Shown piece by piece: positions 4,133 through 14,691 of a stretch of DNA of 39,969 nt. Each line of letters starts with the position of its first letter. Position 1 is the stretch's first letter. Where the stretch lies: assembly GCA_013140575.1 (NCBI GenBank), contig JABFSN010000046.1, positions 1 to 39,969 on the forward strand, in the 5' to 3' direction. A model generated the notes under the pieces. It was not told where the DNA came from and ran no database searches. It saw only the letters and a program-made list of their open reading frames with translations. The position numbers and the translations under genes are program-made. The DNA comes from Phycisphaerales bacterium (GTDB taxonomy: Bacteria > Planctomycetota > Phycisphaerae > UBA1845).

Positions 4133-4957
4133 ATGGATTACATTGACCCGCACATTCACATGGTGTCCCGGGTCACGGATGACTACGAGCGTCTGGCGCG
4201 ATCGGGCTGCGTGGCCGTCTCGGAACCGGCGTTTTGGGCGGGTTTTGACCGTGGATCGGCCGCGGCGTTCGCCGACTACTTCCGTCAACTGACCGAATAT
4301 GAACCCCGGCGGGCGGCGCAGTTCGGCGTGCAGCATTTCTGCTGGCTGTGCATCAACGCCAAGGAGGCGGAAAACGTTGCGCTGTCCCGCGAAGTGATCG
4401 CGCTGATACCGCAGTTTCTGGATCGTCCCAATGTGCTGGGGATCGGCGAGATCGGGCTGAACAAGAATACGCGGAACGAAGTGACCATTTTCACGGAACA
4501 GGCGGCACTCGCCGCCGACGCCGGCGAACTGGTTCTGGTACACACGCCGCATCTGGAAGACAAGTACCTGGGCACGCGGATGATCCTCGATGTGCTGTCG
4601 AGGAACACGGCGATGCCGCCGGAGCGGGTGCTCATCGATCACGTCGAGGAACACACCATTCGCCCGGCGCTGGAGGCCGGTCACTGGTGCGCGATGACGT
4701 TGTACCCGGTGACGAAGTGCACGCCGGCCCGGGCCGCGGACATGATCGAGGTACACGGCGTCGAGCGGGTCATGGTCAATTCCGCGGGGGACTGGGGGGT
4801 CAGCGACCCGACGGCCGTGCCCAAGTTCGTGGCCGAGATGCGGCGGCGCGGGCACGATGAAGAGACCATCCGCACGGTGGTGTATGACAATCCGGTGCGC
4901 TTTTTCGCGCAGTGCGGGCGCTTCCGATTCACGCCGCGCGGCGTTCAGCCCGGGTAG
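4133..4957 (+). CDS. TatD-related metal-dependent hydrolase (EboB-like)
   Basis: A 274-aa amidohydrolase/TatD-superfamily protein, predicted cytoplasmic with no signal peptide. Metal-ligand motifs occur in the expected order: DPHIH near residue 5, GEIG near 105, VHTPH near 139, LIDHVEEH near 166 and SAGDWGVSD near 218. The spacing and the opening DPHIHMVSRxTDDY match the TatD-like hydrolase found in ebo-type clusters (EboB family) better than the TatD nucleases. No UbiA-like or sugar isomerase neighbours of an ebo cluster are present. The substrate is unknown. ATG at 4133 was chosen because the HxH motif follows within a few residues; no strong ribosome binding site precedes it. It is flanked on both sides by hairpin repeats, so it is probably monocistronic. 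Confidence 0.8.
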   Translation: MDYIDPHIHMVSRVTDDYERLARSGCVAVSEPAFWAGFDRGSAAAFADYFRQLTEYEPRRAAQFGVQHFCWLCINAKEAENVALSREVIALIPQFLDRPNVLGIGEIGLNKNTRNEVTIFTEQAALAADAGELVLVHTPHLEDKYLGTRMILDVLSRNTAMPPERVLIDHVEEHTIRPALEAGHWCAMTLYPVTKCTPARAADMIEVHGVERVMVNSAGDWGVSDPTAVPKFVAEMRRRGHDEETIRTVVYDNPVRFFAQCGRFRFTPRGVQPG

Positions 4958-5016
4958 CGGTGCGAAGTTGCACGTGCGTTTCCGGTCGTGGGCGGCGTGC
5001 GAATCGACCCACCGGC

Positions 5017-5241
5017 TCACCCACACCGAACCGTGGTCGTCGTCGCCGTGTTTCCGGGGCATGGGCTCGGAATGGTTTCGCCGTTTTCCAATCGGTCGGC
5101 CAGGACGCGAAGGGCCAGCGCTTCCGCGCCGGCGATGGCCTGGTCCCGTGAAACTCCATAAACCAGGACGCCGGGGAACTCGGGAACCTCGGCGATCCAG
5201 CGCCCGTCGTCCTCCTGCTCGACTTCAAGGGTCAGCTTCAT
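5017..5241 (-). CDS. Solitary HicB-like protein
   Basis: A 74-aa protein whose first 55 residues match the HicB antitoxin fold: an MKLTLEVEQEDDGRWIAEVP strand pair, then PGVLVYGVSRDQA and a helix ending in ADRLENGE. Family members either neutralise the HicA RNase or exist alone. No HicA-like (dsRBD-type) reading frame was found directly downstream or upstream. The C-terminus (PSPCPG followed by four Thr) does not resemble the usual short hydrophobic tail, so the end may have drifted by frameshift. It lies convergent to the TatD-like gene with a 59-bp gap. It could be a remnant or an orphan regulator. Confidence 0.7.
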   Translation of the reverse strand: MKLTLEVEQEDDGRWIAEVPEFPGVLVYGVSRDQAIAGAEALALRVLADRLENGETIPSPCPGNTATTTTVRCG

Positions 5242-5373
5242 ATCGATGCATCCTACCCGCGCGAGCCCCTACCACCAACGCCCCCGGTAACAGGTCAGCC
5301 AATGGCAGTGCCGCGATAATCAAGACACCGGTAATGCCGATGTGTAGAGCGGCTCGTACGCGTCGTTCGCCCT
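5242..5373. other. Intergenic, no gene seen
   Basis: Sequence between the HicB-like gene and the tandem repeat. No convincing reading frame is visible. A short hairpin, CGCCC-tcc-GGGCG at 5368-5380, marks the entry into the repeat region and matches the first hairpin of copy A. Confidence 0.5.
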
Positions 5374-5535
5374 CCGGGCGAGAACGAAGAAGAAGAGATA
5401 ATAGAGGGTGCGGTCACCAGGGACTGAAGTCCCTGGCTACAATCGTGCGCCCTGCGGGCGAAGAGCTGGCGGGTGAAACCCGCCCTACGATCAGGTCTGT
5501 CGGGCGATCTGGTGACCGCGGCATTGCAGATGGCT
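5374..5535. repeat. 162-bp tandem repeat, unit 1 (multi-hairpin element)
   Basis: First of two adjacent 162-bp units. Inside it, an outer inverted repeat GCGGTCACCAG (5410-5420) / CTGGTGACCGC (5509-5519) encloses three hairpins: CCAGGGACT-ga-AGTCCCTGG at 5417-5436, CGCCC-tgc-GGGCG at 5448-5460, and GGCGGGT-gaa-ACCCGCC at 5468-5484. The outer stem shares its CCAG with hairpin 1, so the two are partly alternative. The whole can fold as a multi-branched structure on either strand. The three inner hairpins are those of copy A near 3890-3957. Confidence 0.9.
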
Positions 5536-5697
5536 CCGGGCGAGAACGAAGAAGAAGAGATAATAGAGGGTGCGGTCACCAGGGACTGAAGTCCCTGGCT
5601 TCAATCGTGCGCCCTGCGGGCGAAGAGATGGCGGGTGAAACCCGCCCTACGATCAGGTCTGTCGGGCGATCTGGTGACCGCGGCATTGCAGATGGCT
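5536..5697. repeat. 162-bp tandem repeat, unit 2
   Basis: Direct repeat of 5374-5535 at an offset of exactly 162 bp. By eye only two substitutions separate the units: ctggctac versus ctggcttc after hairpin 1, and gagctggc versus gagatggc before hairpin 3. Neither affects a stem. The low divergence implies a recent duplication. The unit has the same outer inverted repeat and three inner hairpins. Confidence 0.9.
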
Positions 5698-5900
5698 GAA
5701 CAGTTACGCGCCCCCGACGACGGAACTCGATTGGGGCCTTTATTGAGCAAAAACCCGGACGACAAGACTGGAGACCGGCGTGGCGCGACGGGAGGGTCTC
5801 AGGACGAAAAAGCAAGAGCGCCGTGTGACCGGGGCATTGGGTGTAGTGGCGACGCCCTTGGTCAACCGGACGCGGTTCGGGCGATGGCACGGTCGTCGAA
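5698..5900. other. Intergenic downstream of trpE, nothing recognised
   Basis: About 200 bp between the tandem repeat and the end of trpE. No convincing gene or clear rho-independent terminator was found for the trp operon. The hairpin repeats just beyond may serve that role. Confidence 0.4.
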
Positions 5901-7334
5901 CTACATGCGGGAGCGGGCGTCGGCGCGGGCGTATTGGACGGCGCGCATCAGGGCGCGGGCTTTGTTGAAGGTTTCGGCGTATTCCCTTTCGGGGATGGAA
6001 TCGGCGACGATGCCGGCGCCGGCCTGGATGCAGCCGCGGCGACCGTCGAGGACCATGGTGCGGATGGCGATGCACAGGTCCATGTCGCCGAGGAAGCTGA
6101 TGTAGCCGATGGCGCCGGCGTAGATGCCGCGGGCGACGGGCTCCAGTTCGGCGATGATTTCCATGGCCCGGATTTTGGGGGCGCCGGAAACGGTTCCGGC
6201 CGGAAACGTGGCGGCGAGCAGATCGAACGCATCACGATCGGTGCGGAGCATGCCCTCGACGTTGGATACGAGGTGCATCACGCGGGAATAGCGTTCGATT
6301 TGGAGCATGTCCGTCACGGCGATGGAGCCGGGGCGGCACACGCGGCCGATGTCGTTGCGGGCGAGATCGACGAGCATGATGTGCTCGGCGCGTTCCTTGT
6401 GGTCGGCGCGTAGTTCGTCGGCCAGGGCGCGATCGAGTTCGGGCGTGGCGCCGCGGGGGCGGGTGCCGGCAAGCGGGCGGGTGGTGACGCGGCGGCCGTT
6501 CAGCTTGACGAGCATTTCGGGTGATGAACCCAGGACGTTCAGGCCGTCGAGATTCAGGTAGTACATGTAGGGCGACGGGTTGGTGACGCGCAGGGCGCGG
6601 TACAAATCGAGGGGCGGGACGGGCAGGTCGAAATGAAAGCGCTGGGACAGGACGACCTGGAAGACGTCGCCGGCGAGGATGTAGTCCTTGGCGCGGGCGA
6701 CGGCGCGGATGAATTCGGATTCGGTCATGTTGGATTGGAAGGGGACGTCGGCGGCGGGCGGCTCGTCGACGGGACCGCGCGGATCGTCATTGCCGGGTTC
6801 GCAATCGGCGAGTGCGCGGACGATTTCGGCGATGCGATCGTGCGGGCGGTCGCAGCCGTACAGCAGGATGTGAACGACTTCGTGGGGGTGGTCGATGACC
6901 AGTATTTCGCCGGGGAACATGAAATAGACGTCGGGGTGATTCAGGTCGTCGGGCTTGTCTCGCGGAACGGATTCGAAACAGCGGACGACGTCGTAGCCGA
7001 AATAGCCGACGGCGCCGCCGGGAAACGTGGCGATGGGCGGTGCGTCGTTGTAGACGGCGAGCATGTCGCGGAGCGCGGCGATCGGGTCGCCGGTGGAGCG
7101 TTGCGTCATGGCGCCGACATCGATGGTGATCGAATCGCGTTTACTCTTCAGAACGGCGAACGGGCGGGCGCCGAGAAATGAATAACGGCCGGCGGCGCCG
7201 TGGGCTTCCAGCGATTCATACAGGAACGCGTGGGGTTCGTTGGGATACAGCCGTTGGAAGACGGTCAACGGGACGGCCCGCGTCAGGACGCGGCGGTGCA
7301 CGGGGGGCAGGCCGCGTGGAACGCGTTCGATCAT
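5901..7334 (-). CDS. trpE: Anthranilate synthase component I
   Basis: Converts chorismate to anthranilate, using ammonia from a TrpG partner, in the first committed step of tryptophan synthesis. The 477-aa product has the chorismate-binding signatures: LAGTRPRG, DELRADHKERAEHIMLVDLARND, the YSRVMHLVSNVEG segment, FPAGTVSGAPK and GIYAGAIGY, and it ends with QAGAGIVADS and EREYAETFNKA. An N-terminal YESLEAHG segment corresponds to the region that binds feedback tryptophan. The ATG at 7334 overlaps the aroF stop as ATGA, which fixes the start; the frame stays open further upstream only by chance. It is the last gene of the trp operon. No trpG is fused to it or adjacent, so the glutaminase subunit must be elsewhere. 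Confidence 0.95.
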   Translation of the reverse strand: MIERVPRGLPPVHRRVLTRAVPLTVFQRLYPNEPHAFLYESLEAHGAAGRYSFLGARPFAVLKSKRDSITIDVGAMTQRSTGDPIAALRDMLAVYNDAPPIATFPGGAVGYFGYDVVRCFESVPRDKPDDLNHPDVYFMFPGEILVIDHPHEVVHILLYGCDRPHDRIAEIVRALADCEPGNDDPRGPVDEPPAADVPFQSNMTESEFIRAVARAKDYILAGDVFQVVLSQRFHFDLPVPPLDLYRALRVTNPSPYMYYLNLDGLNVLGSSPEMLVKLNGRRVTTRPLAGTRPRGATPELDRALADELRADHKERAEHIMLVDLARNDIGRVCRPGSIAVTDMLQIERYSRVMHLVSNVEGMLRTDRDAFDLLAATFPAGTVSGAPKIRAMEIIAELEPVARGIYAGAIGYISFLGDMDLCIAIRTMVLDGRRGCIQAGAGIVADSIPEREYAETFNKARALMRAVQYARADARSRM

Positions 7335-8356
7335 GTCGCGACCTTTTCTCCGCGGCGGACGGCGTGGGCGATGGTGCGGAGGTCGTCCATCAGCTCCGCG
7401 AACATGGGCGGGGTGAGCGCTTGCGGGCCGTCGGACAGGGCGCAGGCGGGGTTGGGGTGGACCTCGACGATGACGCCGTCGGCGCCGGCGGCGATGGCGG
7501 CGCGGGCCATGGGGATGACCAGGTCGCGCCGTCCGACGGCGTGGCTGGGATCGACGATAATGGGCAGGTGGGACATTTTCTTGATCTGCGGCACGATGCT
7601 GATGTCCAGCGTGTAGCGCGAGTAGTCGCTGAACGCGCGGATGCCTCGCTCGCACAGGACTACCTGGCGGTTGCCCTCGGCCATGATGTACTCGGCCGCG
7701 AGCAGAAACTCCTCGAGCGTGGCGGACATGCCGCGTTTTAGTAGAACGGGTTTGGGCGATCGTCCGGCGCGGCGGAGCAATGAATAGTTCTGCATGTTGC
7801 GGGCGCCGATCTGGATGACGTCGACGCTGGCCTCGACGAGGTCGAAACTTTCCACGTCCATAACCTCGGACACGACGGGCAGGTTGGTCTCGCGGCGGGC
7901 GCGTTCCAGGATTTTCAGGCCCGGCGGGCCCAAACCCTGAAACGAATAGGGCGACGATCGCGGCTTGTAGGCGCCGCCGCGGAGCATGTCCGCGCCCAGT
8001 TCCTTGACGATGCGGGCGGTGTCGATGGTCTGGTCGGCCGATTCGACCGAACAGGGACCGGCGATGACGGTGATGCCCTCGCCGCCGATCTCGACGCCGT
8101 TGACGCGGACGACGGTGTCTTCCGGCTGCATTTCGCGGCTGGTCAGTTTGTAGGGCTTGGTGACGCGGATGATGTCCACGACACCGGGCAGCATGGCCAG
8201 GCGTTGGGGGTCGACGGGGGTCAAATTGCCGGTGATGCCGATGGCGACGCGTGTCTGTCCGGGAATGGGGTGGGGCATCAGACCCATTTCGGAGACGGCG
8301 CGGCACACCCGGGCGACGTCGGCTTCAGACGCGTCCTTTTTCATGACCACGAGCAT
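7331..8356 (-). CDS. aroF: 3-deoxy-7-phosphoheptulonate (DAHP) synthase
   Basis: Condenses phosphoenolpyruvate and erythrose 4-phosphate, the entry step of the shikimate pathway. The 341-aa protein is of the type I-beta class: an N-terminal ferredoxin-like domain of about 70 residues (regulatory in Thermotoga-type enzymes) precedes the barrel. Barrel motifs are AGPCSVES, KPRSSPYSFQG, IGARNMQN, LLKRGM, DPSHAVGR and VEVHPNP...SDGPQ. The start at 8356 (MLVVMKK) overlaps the end of trpA by 32 bp; an internal ATG at 8344 is a less likely alternative. Its place between trpA and trpE puts the shikimate entry enzyme under the tryptophan leader. Confidence 0.93.
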   Translation of the reverse strand: MLVVMKKDASEADVARVCRAVSEMGLMPHPIPGQTRVAIGITGNLTPVDPQRLAMLPGVVDIIRVTKPYKLTSREMQPEDTVVRVNGVEIGGEGITVIAGPCSVESADQTIDTARIVKELGADMLRGGAYKPRSSPYSFQGLGPPGLKILERARRETNLPVVSEVMDVESFDLVEASVDVIQIGARNMQNYSLLRRAGRSPKPVLLKRGMSATLEEFLLAAEYIMAEGNRQVVLCERGIRAFSDYSRYTLDISIVPQIKKMSHLPIIVDPSHAVGRRDLVIPMARAAIAAGADGVIVEVHPNPACALSDGPQALTPPMFAELMDDLRTIAHAVRRGEKVAT

Positions 8357-9124
8357 GGTTCACACTCCGCGTCGCCTGTTTCAGCGACGATACCAGTTCA
8401 TCGAGCGGTTCGTGATCGCGAACGGCCTCAATGAAACGGCTGCCGACGACGACGGCGTCGGCGTGGCCGTGCAGTTGACGAATCTGTTCCGGCCGCGAGA
8501 TGCCGAAACCGACGGCGACGGGCACGGGCGACGACGCGCGGAGGGCGTCGAGCGCGGCGGTCAGTCCGTCGGGCAGGCGGTCGCGGCCGCCGGTGGTGCC
8601 GGTGACGCTGACATAGTAAACGAAAGCGGTCGATTTATCCGCAATGCGGCGGATGCGGTCGGGCGTGGAGGTGGGCGCGACCAGGTGAATGATGTGGATG
8701 TCGGACGCGCGGGCGGCGTCGATCCAGCCGTCGGCTTCGGTGATGGGCAGGTCGGGGACGATCAGGCCGACGATTCCGACGTCGCGCATGCGGTGGAATA
8801 GCCGGTCGCGATCCCATGCCAATAGCGGGTTCAGGTAGGACATGGCCACGACGGGGCGGTCGAATCGGGCGGCGCGGAGCGCGTCGAGGAGGTCGGACAA
8901 ACGGAATCCGTGGTCCAATGCGTTTTTGGAGGCGAATTGAATGGTCGGGCCGTCGGCGATGGGGTCGCTGAACGGGATGCCGATTTCGAGAATGTCGGCG
9001 CCGTTTTCGGCGAGACGGCGCATGTTGTCGATGGATGCGTCCAATGTGGGAAAACCGGCGGTCATGTAGGCGATCAGCGCGGCTTCATCGCAGGGGCGCA
9101 GCGTTTGAAACACGGATTCGAGCG

Positions 9125-9128
<4 letters not shown>
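8325..9128 (-). CDS. trpA: Tryptophan synthase alpha chain
   Basis: Cleaves indole-3-glycerol phosphate to indole and glyceraldehyde 3-phosphate within the TrpA2B2 complex. The product is 267 aa, the usual length. The catalytic region reads [15 protein letters not shown], holding the conserved Glu and Asp. Further family signatures are [32 protein letters not shown] and VVVGSRFIE. Its ATG at 9128 overlaps the trpB stop as ATGA, as is normal for the paired subunits. Confidence 0.96.
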
Positions 9129-10318
<1,190 letters not shown>

Positions 10319-10408
10319 CGTTCGAACGATCATAGGCCACCGGCGTACCAATCAGCACGTCCAGCGCCGCAACAACGACCAAAACCGACAATTGCATCAC
10401 CTATCCAT

Positions 10409-11233
10409 TCATGAATTCGCATGCCGGTCGGCGCGGGGCGACAAGCGCCCCGCGCGTTGAACGTCCGGCCCGGTCAGTTCGGCGATCTTCGCGGCCGGGT
10501 CATCGGCGGTCATCAGCGTTTCGCCGATCAGGACGGCGTCATAACCGGCGTCGCGCATTCTGGTCATGTCCTCGCGTGAATGGATGCCGCTTTCCGCCAC
10601 GGCGACGCAGTCCATTGGAATTTGGGGACGCAATCGGGTGGCCGTACCGGTATCCACGTTCAGGGTGTCGAGATCGCGATTGTTGACGCCGATGATGCGC
10701 GCGCCGGCGTCGATGGCGCGGTCCAGTTCCCGCTCGTCGTGGACCTCGACCAGCGCGGTCATGCCCGACGCGGCCGCGGCGTGGATGAATTCGCGGAGTG
10801 CGGCATCGTCGAGAATTCGGGCGATCAACAATACTGCATCGGCCCCGATGGTTTGCGATTCCTGGAGTTGGAACACATCGATCAGGAAATCCTTGCGCAG
10901 GACGGGCAGACCAACCGTGCGTTTCACGGTCGTCAGATCGGCGGCGACGCCGCCGAACCAGGTGGAATCGGTCAGGACCGACACGGCCGACGCGCCGGCG
11001 CGTTCATACACGGTCGCCACGGTCGCCGGATCGGCGTCGGCACGGATCAGGCCGCGGGACGGCGATCGGCGCTTGAATTCGGCGATGACGGACAGGCCCG
11101 GGCCGCGCAATGCCGCGGCGAAATCGCGGGGTGGCGGCAATTCCGCATCGCGCGACGCCGCCGGCGACGCACGGCGTCTGGCCGCGGCCACTTCCTCGCG
11201 CTTGCGGCGAATGATTGTTTCCAGAAGGGTCAC
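10409..11233 (-). CDS. trpC: Indole-3-glycerol phosphate synthase
   Basis: Closes the indole ring from carboxyphenylaminodeoxyribulose phosphate. The 274-aa barrel has EFKRRSPSRG (catalytic Lys), LRKDFLID, LVEVHDERELDRA, IGVNNRDLDT and VAESGIHS. There is no fused TrpF domain, and trpF is not in the cluster. The start is GTG at 11233, overlapping the trpD stop as GTGA. The last 20 residues are Arg-rich and not conserved in the family. Confidence 0.95.
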   Translation of the reverse strand: MTLLETIIRRKREEVAAARRRASPAASRDAELPPPRDFAAALRGPGLSVIAEFKRRSPSRGLIRADADPATVATVYERAGASAVSVLTDSTWFGGVAADLTTVKRTVGLPVLRKDFLIDVFQLQESQTIGADAVLLIARILDDAALREFIHAAAASGMTALVEVHDERELDRAIDAGARIIGVNNRDLDTLNVDTGTATRLRPQIPMDCVAVAESGIHSREDMTRMRDAGYDAVLIGETLMTADDPAAKIAELTGPDVQRAGRLSPRADRHANS

Positions 11234-12267
11234 GACATGGCACTCCGCGTCCCGGCGCGCAGCGCGTCCAGCTTGGCGATCGCCCGCCCGGAATCGATGG
11301 ACTGCCTGGCCAATTCCAGTCCGTCGCGAATCGATGGGGCGACGCCGGCCACGTAAATGGCGGCGGCGGCGTTCAGGACGACGATTTCGCGGCCGGGTCC
11401 CGGTTGGCCGCGCAACACCTCCTGAACGATGCCGGCGTTGACCGTCGGGCTGCCGCCGCGGAGCGCTGCGGGATCAGCACAACACAAACCCAACGATGCC
11501 GGATCGAGCCGATAGGACCGAACCCGATCGTCCACCAGCTCGGCGACGGTGGTTCGGCCGCACAACGTGATTTCATCCAGACCATCCTCGCCGTGCACGA
11601 CCATGCCCCGAACGGCGCCTAGGCGGTGCAGGACGGTCGCGACCGGTTCGGTCAGTCGTTCGTCGAACACGCCGATCAATTGCCTCTTCGCGCCGGCCGG
11701 GTTCGTCAACGGACCCACGATGTTGAATATGCTGCGGATGCCGATGTCGCGTCGCGGCTCGGCCGCGTGCCGGGCGGCCTGATGGTACATGGGGGCGAAC
11801 AGGAATCCGATGCCGATGTCGCGGATGGCGGCGGCCGTCATTTCCACGGGCATTGCCGTGTCCACGCCCAACGCTTCGAGCACGTCGGCGCTGCCGCATC
11901 CGCCGGAAACGGATCGGTTGCCGTGCTTGGCGACCCGGCAGCCGGCGCCGGCGGCCACGAATGCCGCGGCCGTCGAGATGTTGAAGGTCCCCGAACCGTC
12001 CCCGCCGGTTCCGCAGGTGTCGATTAGCGAATCGCCGTCGATGTTCAGCGGGGTGGCGTGGGCCCGCAGGGCGCGGGCGAATCCCGTGATTTCATTGACG
12101 GATTCGCTTTTCATGCGCAAGGCAACGAGCAGGCCGGCGATCTGGCCGGGTGACGCCTGTCCCGACATGATTTCGCCCGCGACATCGTGGGCGTCGCTCG
12201 CGGTTAGACTACGTCCGGAAACAACCACACGGATGGCGTCCTGGATGATTGCGGTCCGCGTTTGCAT
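11230..12267 (-). CDS. trpD: Anthranilate phosphoribosyltransferase
   Basis: Transfers phosphoribosyl from PRPP to anthranilate. The 345-aa product contains the PRPP-binding IDTCGTGGDGSGTFNIST, the KHGNRSVSGGCGSADVLEALG segment, FLFAPMYHQA, IFNIVGPLTNPA and the acidic HGEDGLDEIT. The ATG at 12267 begins MQTRTAIIQDAI, where the family normally begins. The longer open frame upstream runs back through the leader region and is not a coding extension. It is the first structural gene after the attenuator. Confidence 0.95.
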   Translation of the reverse strand: MQTRTAIIQDAIRVVVSGRSLTASDAHDVAGEIMSGQASPGQIAGLLVALRMKSESVNEITGFARALRAHATPLNIDGDSLIDTCGTGGDGSGTFNISTAAAFVAAGAGCRVAKHGNRSVSGGCGSADVLEALGVDTAMPVEMTAAAIRDIGIGFLFAPMYHQAARHAAEPRRDIGIRSIFNIVGPLTNPAGAKRQLIGVFDERLTEPVATVLHRLGAVRGMVVHGEDGLDEITLCGRTTVAELVDDRVRSYRLDPASLGLCCADPAALRGGSPTVNAGIVQEVLRGQPGPGREIVVLNAAAAIYVAGVAPSIRDGLELARQSIDSGRAIAKLDALRAGTRSAMS

Positions 12268-12294
12268 TCCGGTCCTTGGACGAGCAACGCCCAT

Positions 12295-12328
12295 AAAAAA
12301 AGCCCCCGGCGTTCGTCGCCGAGGGCTT
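12295..12328 (-). terminator. trp attenuator terminator
   Basis: In the transcript, AAGCCCUCGGCG (12328-12317) pairs with CGCCGGGGGCUU (12311-12300) around a 5-nt ACGAA loop. This is a 12-bp stem with a single U-G pair. Seven U residues (12301-12295) end the structure, two of them within the stem. It lies between the leader peptide and trpD, 28 nt before the trpD start. Confidence 0.92.
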
Positions 12329-12347
12329 GGGTTCATCCGTGTGCTGG

Positions 12348-12434
12348 TTACGACGCGAGGAAACCCGGACCATCGGCGCAAGGATGATGCCAGCGCCAAT
12401 CCACCCGGGTCGGTTGCGTCGTCCAATACAACAT
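12348..12434 (-). CDS. trpL: trp leader peptide
   Basis: A 28-codon frame from ATG at 12434 to TAA at 12350-12348, with Trp (TGG) at codons 4, 13 and 15. Three Trp in 28 residues is strong enrichment, and codons 13 and 15 sit just before the alternative hairpin segments, as attenuation requires. The ATG begins six bases after the -10 box, so the predicted transcription start is the A of the ATG and the gene would be leaderless, with no ribosome binding site. The peptide presumably serves as a Trp-tRNA sensor; a separate role for the peptide or the short leader RNA cannot be judged from sequence. Confidence 0.88.
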   Translation of the reverse strand: MLYWTTQPTRVDWRWHHPCADGPGFLAS

Positions 12435-12440
12435 GCACGC

Positions 12441-12469
12441 ACGATACCGGCACGACCGGCGCCTGTCAA
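12441..12469 (-). promoter_or_regulatory. Sigma70-type promoter of the trp operon
   Basis: On the minus strand a consensus -35 box TTGACA (12469-12464) is followed by a 17-bp spacer and a -10 box TATCGT (12446-12441, four of six consensus bases). The predicted start site, seven bases past the -10, is 12434, the first base of the leader peptide ATG. Confidence 0.8.
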
Positions 12470-12610
12470 GCGGGTCGGCGATTGACCGTAATAACTGCGA
12501 CAACTTCCTAAAGGCGGGGGTTTACCCGGACGAATCAGACGACGGGCCGACGCATCGGCTCGTCCGTCGTTATCGGCCGGAACGGTTCGGCTCGAACGAA
12601 CAGGTGCCGC

Positions 12611-12919
12611 ATGAAGATCGTGACGCATTCCGACGAAACGCCCGTACGGCTGGAATTGCACGGGAAGCTGATCGGCAAGGCCGCCGGCGCGGTCCACGAT
12701 GCCGTCGAGACCGTGGTGGCGAAGGGCGGGCAGCACATTGAATTGGATCTGCACGCATTGGCCGTTGTGGACAGCGCGGGGCTGGAAGCGCTGCTGGCCT
12801 GTCACGAGCGTTGCGCCGCTGCGGGCGGCCGATGCACGTTGACGGGGGTCAGCGGCAAGATCGAACGGATTCTGCGCATCACCCGGCTGGACCGGGAATT
12901 GGAATTCGTGCCGGGTTGA
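12611..12919 (+). CDS. STAS-domain protein (anti-sigma factor antagonist type)
   Basis: A 102-aa single STAS domain, cytoplasmic. The LALHxLAVVDSAGLEALL-like segment near residue 60 contains the conserved Asp-Ser pair; the Ser is the usual phosphorylation site in SpoIIAA-type proteins. No kinase or anti-sigma partner is next to it. AGGTG lies about five bases before the ATG. It is the first gene of the pilus/secretion operon, 20 bp before pilB, and divergent from the trp promoter. A role in partner-switch control of the pilus genes or in complex assembly is inference from position. Confidence 0.82.
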   Translation: MKIVTHSDETPVRLELHGKLIGKAAGAVHDAVETVVAKGGQHIELDLHALAVVDSAGLEALLACHERCAAAGGRCTLTGVSGKIERILRITRLDRELEFVPG

Positions 12920-12939
12920 CCGGCGCGACGTGGCGGCTG

Positions 12940-14691
12940 ATGGCGACAATGACGGCGACGAAAACCCAATCGCTCGGCGCAATGCTGATCGAACAGCGCG
13001 TGATCACGCAGGCGCAGCTCGAGGAGGCGCTGGCGTCGCAGAAATCGCTGGGGTTGCCGTTGGGAGAAACGTTGATCCAGTTGCAGTTCGCAACCCCGTC
13101 GCAAATTTTTCCCGTGCTTGAATCGCAGATGAACGTACCGTGGGTGGATCTGTCGGACGGGTCGGTCGACCCCCGTGTGGTGCCGACCATACCGCAGGAA
13201 AAGGCGGAACGTCACGGGGTGTTGGCGTTGTTCCGCGTCCGCGACCAACTGACCGTGGCCATGTGCGACCCGCGGGCCATTTTCGTAATCGATGAACTGG
13301 AACAGGAAACGGGGTTGCGGTTGCTGCCGGTGCTGGTGTCGCAGACGGACGTGCGGCGGGCCATCGCGCGTTATTACGCGGAAACGGCATTCGACGAAAA
13401 CGTGGAAAGCCCACCACCGGCCGTGGGCGAGAAGCCGGCGGAATCGTCGTTGTCGGACCCGTCGTTTCGAGCGGCCAACGTCGGCGAGGTGGGCGGCGAT
13501 GCCAGCCCGCTGGTGAATCTGGTGAACGTGATGCTGTGCAACGCGGTTCGTGAACACGCGAGCGATGTTCATGTGGAGCCGGGGCTCGAGCACATCAGCG
13601 TGCGTTACCGAATCGACGGCGAGCTGCACGAGGTGATGACGCCCAAATTGTCGCTGCACGCGGCGTTGATTTCGCGGCTGAAGGTCATGACCCGGATGGA
13701 CATTGCCGAGCGCCGCCGTCCGCAGGACGGTCGCACGATGGTCGCGGTGGAGGGGCGGCAGATCGACGTGCGGGCGTCGTGCATGCCCACGGTCCGCGGC
13801 GAGAAGATGGCGTTGCGGCTGCTGGACCGCGAGAGCGCGACGCTGGATTTCGAACGGTTGGGGATGGGCGAACAGATTCGCGTCACGTTGCGGGAGCTGC
13901 TGGCCAAACCAAACGGCATGATCCTGGTGACGGGACCGACCGGGTCGGGCAAGACGACGTCGCTGTATGCCATGCTGAACGAGTTGCGCGGGGTGTCGCA
14001 CAACGTCGTCAGCGTCGAAGACCCCGTCGAATACGAATTGGAATACGTCAATCAGGTCCAGGTCAACGAGCCAATCGGTCTGACGTTCGCGTCGATTCTG
14101 CGGACGATTCTGCGGCAGGATCCGGATTACATCATGGTGGGGGAAATCCGCGATCTGGACACGGCCAAGATGGCCATTCAATCGGCGCTGACCGGTCATC
14201 TCGTTCTGACGACGCTGCACACCAATGACGCGGTCAGCGCGGTGACGCGGTTGATCAATATCGGCGTGGATGCACACATGGTCGGGGCGTCGCTGAACGC
14301 GGTGATGGCCCAGCGGCTGGTGCGGACGGTGTGTCCCAAATGCGCAGCGCCCGATCCGCCGGCGTCTGAATTACTGACCCGATGGGGTCTGAATCCGAAC
14401 GGCAAGTACCAATTTCGGCGCGGCGCCGGTTGTCCCCATTGTTACGGAACGGGACTACGCGGCCGGGTGGGCGTGTACGAATTGCTGGTGCTGGACGAGA
14501 CGCTGCGCGCGGCGGTGGCCCGCGACGAGGGATTGGAAAGCCTGCGGAGACTGGCGCGGCGGTCGGGCATGGCGGAAATCGCGGCGGAGGGAATCGCGTT
14601 GGCGGCCGCGGGGCGTACGACGATGAATGAAATCCTCTCGGTCATTACCGTCGACGCACCGGTGCATTTGGAGCCGGCCGGAAAGGAATAG
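12940..14691 (+). CDS. pilB: Type IV pilus/type II secretion assembly ATPase (PilB/GspE)
   Basis: Hexameric cytoplasmic ATPase that powers pilin or pseudopilin extrusion. With ATG at 12940 the product is 583 aa. Residues about 8-150 are the GspE N-terminal (MshEN-type) domain. Walker A is GPTGSGKTTS near residue 330, the Asp box is EDPVEYELE, Walker B is DPDYIMVGEIRD, and the His box is TGHLVLTTLHTNDA. A tetracysteine zinc motif (CPKC...GCPHC) lies near 465-505. All catalytic residues are intact. An alternative ATG at 12949 is only three codons downstream; the open frame before 12940 overlaps the STAS gene and is not conserved. Confidence 0.95.
   Translation: MATMTATKTQSLGAMLIEQRVITQAQLEEALASQKSLGLPLGETLIQLQFATPSQIFPVLESQMNVPWVDLSDGSVDPRVVPTIPQEKAERHGVLALFRVRDQLTVAMCDPRAIFVIDELEQETGLRLLPVLVSQTDVRRAIARYYAETAFDENVESPPPAVGEKPAESSLSDPSFRAANVGEVGGDASPLVNLVNVMLCNAVREHASDVHVEPGLEHISVRYRIDGELHEVMTPKLSLHAALISRLKVMTRMDIAERRRPQDGRTMVAVEGRQIDVRASCMPTVRGEKMALRLLDRESATLDFERLGMGEQIRVTLRELLAKPNGMILVTGPTGSGKTTSLYAMLNELRGVSHNVVSVEDPVEYELEYVNQVQVNEPIGLTFASILRTILRQDPDYIMVGEIRDLDTAKMAIQSALTGHLVLTTLHTNDAVSAVTRLINIGVDAHMVGASLNAVMAQRLVRTVCPKCAAPDPPASELLTRWGLNPNGKYQFRRGAGCPHCYGTGLRGRVGVYELLVLDETLRAAVARDEGLESLRRLARRSGMAEIAAEGIALAAAGRTTMNEILSVITVDAPVHLEPAGKE

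Follow-up and report, generated by a model that had tools for sequence, protein, structure and literature searches.

A putative leaderless trp attenuator in a Phycisphaerales bacterium and a similar leader layout upstream of cysH across its order

A Trp-containing leader ORF precedes a trpD-first operon

The window (the whole 39,969-nt stretch of DNA analyzed here) belongs to a 5.05-Mb genome in 268 contigs (G000), with no other member of its genus among the genomes listed for the family. Its minus strand carries a trp operon in the order trpD–trpC–trpB–trpA–DAHP synthase–trpE, headed by a promoter-like sequence, a short Trp-containing ORF and a terminator hairpin. The features, in the direction of transcription, are as follows.

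12464–12469, minus strand: –35 hexamer, TTGACA (read from the sequence; TTGAC followed by A, T or C is common to all nine related trp leaders)
12441–12446, minus strand: –10 hexamer, TATCGT, separated from the –35 by a 17-nt spacer
12435–12440, minus strand: 6-nt gap between –10 and ATG, GCGTGC, without room for a Shine–Dalgarno (SD) site
12348–12434, minus strand: trp leader peptide ORF of 28 codons, with ATG at 12434–12432 and a TAA stop
12389–12411, minus strand: region 1, holding Trp13 and Trp15, predicted partner of region 2 when no ribosome is present
12360–12378, minus strand: region 2, predicted antiterminator partner of region 3
12317–12333, minus strand: region 3 (predicted), which includes the terminator 5′ arm (12328–12317)
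12300–12328, minus strand: intrinsic terminator hairpin of 12 pairs with a loop of 5, followed by a T-run
11230–12267, minus strand: trpD, first structural gene (TIGR01245, 404.7 bits), with an alternative in-frame ATG at 12294
10409–11233, minus strand: trpC (NF001377, 308 bits)
9125–10351, minus strand: trpB (TIGR00263, 639 bits), whose start may be internal to the ORF
8325–9128, minus strand: trpA (TIGR00262, 237 bits)
7331–8356, minus strand: 3-deoxy-7-phosphoheptulonate (DAHP) synthase (NF006421, 495 bits; TIGR01361, 396 bits)
5901–7334, minus strand: trpE (TIGR00564, 545.6 bits)

Neither trpG nor trpF was seen among the operon ORFs searched, and the DAHP synthase gene (7331–8356) is placed between trpA and trpE. 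Beyond the operon, the translation of the ORF at 4857–5699 contains ∼55 residues twice in tandem, near-identical, reflecting a DNA repeat. On the other side, a divergent small gene at 12611–12919 resembles an anti-sigma factor antagonist (TIGR00377, just under the cut-off) and adjoins type IV pilus genes.

The leader ORF (12434–12348) translates to MLYWTTQPTRVDWRWHHPCADGPGFLAS followed by TAA, with Trp codons at positions 4 (12425–12423), 13 (12398–12396) and 15 (12392–12390). TTGACA-N17-TATCGT matches the consensus at 10 of 12 positions and was the sole promoter-like site in a consensus scan of 2.5 kb (11000–13500), for which shuffling gave an expectation of 0.3 sites (mean; sd 0.6). Its score was unmatched in 200 shuffles of the 190-nt segment 5′ of the tandem Trp codons. 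No SD-like 4-mer occurs in the 20 nt upstream of the leader ATG, and Rfam covariance families, trp leader families included, gave no match in the window at gathering score. In the usual σ70 geometry, a 6-nt gap after the –10 element places +1 at the next base. Because the gap here is six, the predicted +1 is 12434, the A of the leader ATG, although the exact base is something we infer. A leader RNA ending in the T-run TTTTTATGGG, which follows the terminator stem (12328–12300), would be about 142 nt long. A sequence-only reading of this DNA had put the promoter six bases from the ATG and the terminated transcript at about 140 nt; coordinates re-read on the minus strand agree with the former, and the computed length is close to the latter.

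Trp leaders in related genomes share the short promoter-to-ATG gap

The order is represented by 114 genomes. On protein markers, its phylum is probably Planctomycetota: genomes of one family in the phylum (f70), several of them closed, encode one or two ORFs of 809–831 aa with the HZS_alpha domain, which fits hydrazine synthase alpha of anammox bacteria in both size and copy number. Other proteins across the phylum contain this domain too, and Pfam PF07596, a planctomycete marker, gave no match anywhere. TrpD was found at E ≤ 1e-60 in 87 of them and at ≥50% identity in 12, the window included. Nine of these 12 trpD loci have a Trp-rich ORF and a terminator upstream (G000, G040, G022, G016, G002, G110, G054, G078 and G099). 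Two others (G075 and G029) show no recognizable Trp leader upstream, and the twelfth (G063) lies at a contig end. We considered the G029 upstream region as a leader and rejected it: a hairpin resembling a terminator is present there, but a clear Trp leader is not. The trpD gene of that genome (L004/L128, G029:C24) has one in-frame TAG, and may be a decaying copy or contain a sequencing error.

The region upstream of trpD was scanned in 41 genomes of the family and 18 others of the order, counting the 12 above and two without usable sequence; no leader with a terminator beyond the nine was found among the more distant trpD loci scanned. The Trp leader of one distant record (L106) shows an AAGGTGG stretch and a gap of ordinary length (17 nt), and two weak Trp-leader matches (L176 and L188) were seen elsewhere in the phylum. 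We also looked for a trp leader 5′ of trpE. It was absent from 29 of the 30 trpE loci listed, out of 80 genomes with a match; the remaining locus has a weak Trp-containing ORF, without leaderless geometry.

To measure the gap, the promoter was picked by score alone, blind to the ATG, and the number of bases between –10 and the first in-frame ATG was recorded. The nine trp leaders gave gaps of 6 (window), 10, 7, 6, 6, 7, 22, 7 and 7 nt; that is, 6–7 nt in seven and ≤11 nt in eight. When promoter positions were permuted among loci, a mean of 2.89 out of nine fell at ≤11 nt, and the observed eight was reached in 26 of 20,000 permutations, which supports the sequence-only proposal that the trp leader is leaderless. 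In seven of the nine leaders, the 20 nt preceding the ATG are also free of SD-like 4-mers. The exceptions are G016, with GAGG upstream of the predicted start and a gap of 6 nt, and G054, with GAGG and AAGG and a gap of 22 nt. Since G054 combines an ordinary gap with an SD-like stretch, leaderlessness is, on this comparison, not obligatory among the relatives.

These data bear on two other explanations. GC-rich DNA often contains short ORFs, so the leader might be a meaningless ORF that happens to lie beside a promoter-like match. But nine genomes share the combination of Trp codons, terminator, trpD and promoter spacing, a comparison that refutes the chance reading and leaves it a negligible probability. 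The second explanation keeps the classical trp attenuator but gives it a minimal, still SD-free 5′ UTR (∼1–5 nt), so that +1 is not exactly the A. Transcription start points scatter over a few bases, and the gap is 10 nt in G040 and 8–11 nt in many of the cysteine leaders described below. Given a gap of 6 nt in the window and 6–7 nt in most of the trp leaders, we regard such a 5′ UTR as unlikely here, if quite conceivable.

Predicted folding is that of a transcription attenuator

The window leader folds with z = –4.04. To follow folding during transcription, we folded the RNA only as far as the terminator loop, with a ribosome at chosen codons. Upstream pairing of the terminator 5′ arm was then predicted at 0.05 when no ribosome was present, at 0.74 for a ribosome positioned at Trp13 or Trp15 and at 0.01 for one at the stop codon. 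The leader regions are thus predicted to pair alternatively, and the predicted folds correspond to pairings 1:2, 2:3 and 3:4 of the classical attenuator. Relative to composition shuffles of the upstream part, pairing in the stalled state appears only moderately elevated (3 of 60 shuffles were as high at Trp13, and 8 of 60 at Trp15).

In all nine leaders, the terminator 5′ arm is predicted to pair more when the ribosome is at a tandem Trp codon than when it is at the stop, with values of 0.74–0.90 at the best tandem Trp codon versus 0.01–0.70 at the stop. Sequestering of region 2 by region 1 in the ribosome-free state was predicted for three of them (G000, G022 and G002; 0.05, 0.09 and 0.15, respectively) and not for the other six (0.57–0.86). 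At equilibrium with the complete terminator, the terminator wins at all ribosome positions in eight of the nine leaders, the window included. The switch must therefore be kinetic, resting on the order of folding. Antitermination by folding order is usual for attenuators.

A cysteine leader with the same geometry precedes cysH

We searched G000 for the strict pattern TTGAC-N17–19-TANNNT-N5–7-ATG and obtained 26 matches; substituting GTA for ATG gave 8, and reading the pattern backwards gave 5. One of the 26 is a poly-cysteine leader, MLMRQGFGGQVARWVDTACICCCPSRESS, followed by a hairpin, a T-run and cysH (L225/L243; G000:C75, 53530–54234, minus strand; NF002537, 231 bits). Within the order, cysH was found at E ≤ 1e-40 in 52 of the 114 genomes, and all 52 loci were examined. 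A Cys-run ORF with a T-run behind it is present at 45 of them. Three loci (L271, L275 and L286) have a Cys-run ORF without a clear T-run, two (L285 and L292) have no Cys-run ORF, and two (L268 and L291) are too short to judge. Among ten cysH loci from outside the order, a Cys-run ORF is present in two (G295 and G355) and absent from eight.

With the promoter again chosen first, the gap is 6–11 nt in 39 of the 45 cysteine leaders, and 6–8 nt in 20 of these; for the other six, it is 41–116 nt in five, and one has no ATG. In 10,000 permutations, the number of leaders with a gap of 6–11 nt averaged 6.8 and never exceeded 16, versus the 39 observed. The promoter outscored 30 shuffles in 41 of 45 cases. 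A hairpin lies 25–53 nt beyond the stop in 43 of the 45, and its 5′ arm has a predicted pairing of 0.78 with the ribosome in mid-run versus 0.30 with the ribosome at the stop, pairing being higher in the stalled state for 41 of the 43. The G000 cysteine leader shows a smaller contrast (0.81 versus 0.46), without ribosome-free sequestering.

The recurrence of this arrangement in eight of nine trp and 39 of 45 cysteine leaders, the lack of any second promoter-like site in the 2.5 kb around the window leader and the missing SD-like 4-mer at its ATG all argue against an undetected upstream promoter, which would give the leader ORF an ordinary 5′ UTR and make the –35/–10 match a chance or secondary one. 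Not all promoters fit the σ70 consensus and SD-like sequences do precede other genes of this genome (see below), but we hold such a promoter to be very improbable.

Proposed mechanism

The promoter, leader ORF, terminator and operon order are apparent from the sequence and its comparison with relatives, in which the arrangement recurs. We conclude that the window very probably contains a ribosome-mediated trp transcription attenuator, with its leader peptide translated from an RNA that is leaderless or close to it. The leaderless reading is backed by the 6–7-nt gap in seven of the nine trp leaders, by the lack of an SD in the same proportion and by the matching geometry of the cysteine leaders.

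In the proposed mechanism, RNA polymerase would start at, or a few bases from, the leader ATG, and we infer both that the ribosome binds the 5′-terminal AUG without an SD site and that the system responds to Trp-tRNA. With ample Trp-tRNA, the ribosome would reach the stop codon and cover region 2, and the terminator would end the leader RNA. With scarce Trp-tRNA, the ribosome would stall at Trp13/Trp15 and mask region 1. Region 2 could then capture region 3 while the terminator 3′ arm is still to be transcribed, and the polymerase would go on into trpD and the genes beyond it, through to trpE.

Comparison with known leaders

The trp leader of the window is of a kind already known from Sinorhizobium trpL; what gives it broader interest is that it recurs and has a cysteine counterpart. 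In Sinorhizobium meliloti, the 5′ end of rnTrpL coincides with the ATG of trpL, according to the accessible text of PMC7298713, so the Sinorhizobium comparison made in the sequence-only reading is apt. The available part of PMC3616915 reports 171 leaderless start sites in that organism. Both systems have an RNA that begins at the leader ATG (predicted for the window), tandem Trp codons and a short terminated RNA. They differ in that S. meliloti trpL precedes trpE(G) and encodes a 14-aa peptide, with RNA and peptide both acting in trans, whereas the window leader precedes trpD of a trpD–C–B–A–DAHP synthase–trpE operon and encodes 28 aa. By analogy, the terminated RNA or peptide in the window might also act in trans, like rnTrpL/peTrpL: the short RNA would have the leader AUG at its 5′ end, a feature of rnTrpL in the portion of PMC7298713 consulted. 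Yet the leader peptides diverge widely between relatives except around the Trp codons, and we think an additional trans role improbable.

E. coli trpL, unlike the window leader, is preceded by a 5′ UTR containing an SD site. The trp attenuators of Enterobacteriaceae, Corynebacterium and Streptomyces, as presented in the accessible sections of PMC1262725, resemble that of the window in their tandem Trp codons, competing hairpins and terminator before the trp genes; those sections do not discuss leaderlessness in treating the actinobacterial attenuators.

For cysteine, the closest parallel is in mycobacteria, where poly-Cys leaderless ORFs are cysteine-responsive attenuators (Canestrari et al. 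2020, as cited in excerpts of PMC9031893 and PMC9094748), an idea first suggested, from the text available, in PMC4633059. The cysH leader likewise combines a leaderless-type ORF, consecutive cysteine codons and a sulfur-metabolism gene downstream. Unlike the mycobacterial leaders, it occurs in another phylum, has an intrinsic terminator after the ORF, precedes cysH and is predicted from sequence. Species of Planctomycetes and of some other phyla in which few genes have an SD are described, in the part of PMC5397173 consulted, as showing a nucleotide bias typical of leaderless mRNA and/or of S1 use. We found no leaderless trp or cysteine attenuator reported for Planctomycetota in the literature searched, most subscription papers lying outside its reach, and no description in the searchable literature of leaderless initiation as the standard layout for attenuator leaders in this order.

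Leaderless initiation elsewhere in the genome and its possible role in attenuators

To gauge how common such starts are, we made a simple gene call on 336 kb (the window plus ∼296 kb of other contigs), yielding 203 genes with approximate starts. TANNNT elements 5–8 nt before these approximate starts formed no clear peak (7 of 203, at most a slight excess). SD-like 4-mers preceded 70 of the 203 genes versus 29 in a control window, indicating that SD initiation exists in the genome; this count also favors, to a degree, an ordinary 5′ UTR for the trp leader. Given the 26 strict matches and the lack of a peak in the sample, leaderless genes seem to be present but not dominant.

We lean toward the view that leaderless initiation is this order's standard design for amino-acid attenuators (those of the trpD operon and cysH), unlike the case for most genes. 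If so, a 5′-terminal AUG would let the ribosome load as the RNA emerges, fixing its timing relative to RNA polymerase, and such a timing constraint could select for leaders of this type across unrelated phyla (alpha-proteobacteria, actinobacteria and the one studied here). Because two amino-acid leaders share the layout in a third, distant lineage, alongside Sinorhizobium (trp) and mycobacteria (cysteine), and the cysteine layout occupies most cysH loci of the order, these data suggest convergent use of 5′-AUG initiation where ribosome and polymerase need synchrony. The order would then offer dozens of natural variants, with gaps from 6 to 22 nt, bearing on how leaderless loading relates to attenuator response. 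The pattern also marks small ORFs missed by annotation.

By eye, several of the 26 strict matches open long or recognizable ORFs. One further poly-Cys ORF among them (L233) was rejected as a leader, its CCC being an out-of-frame reading of a lipoprotein signal peptide, again judged by eye. Three matches (L219, L227 and L229) are copies of a near-identical promoter-like repeat that ends in TATGTTAGGTTATG and lies before short or unrelated ORFs. Six others (L217, L220, L222, L226, L236 and L240) appear by eye to encode small helix-turn-helix-like proteins of 70–76 aa with leaderless promoter spacing, and GATATC-like half sites in several of their promoters hint at self-repression.
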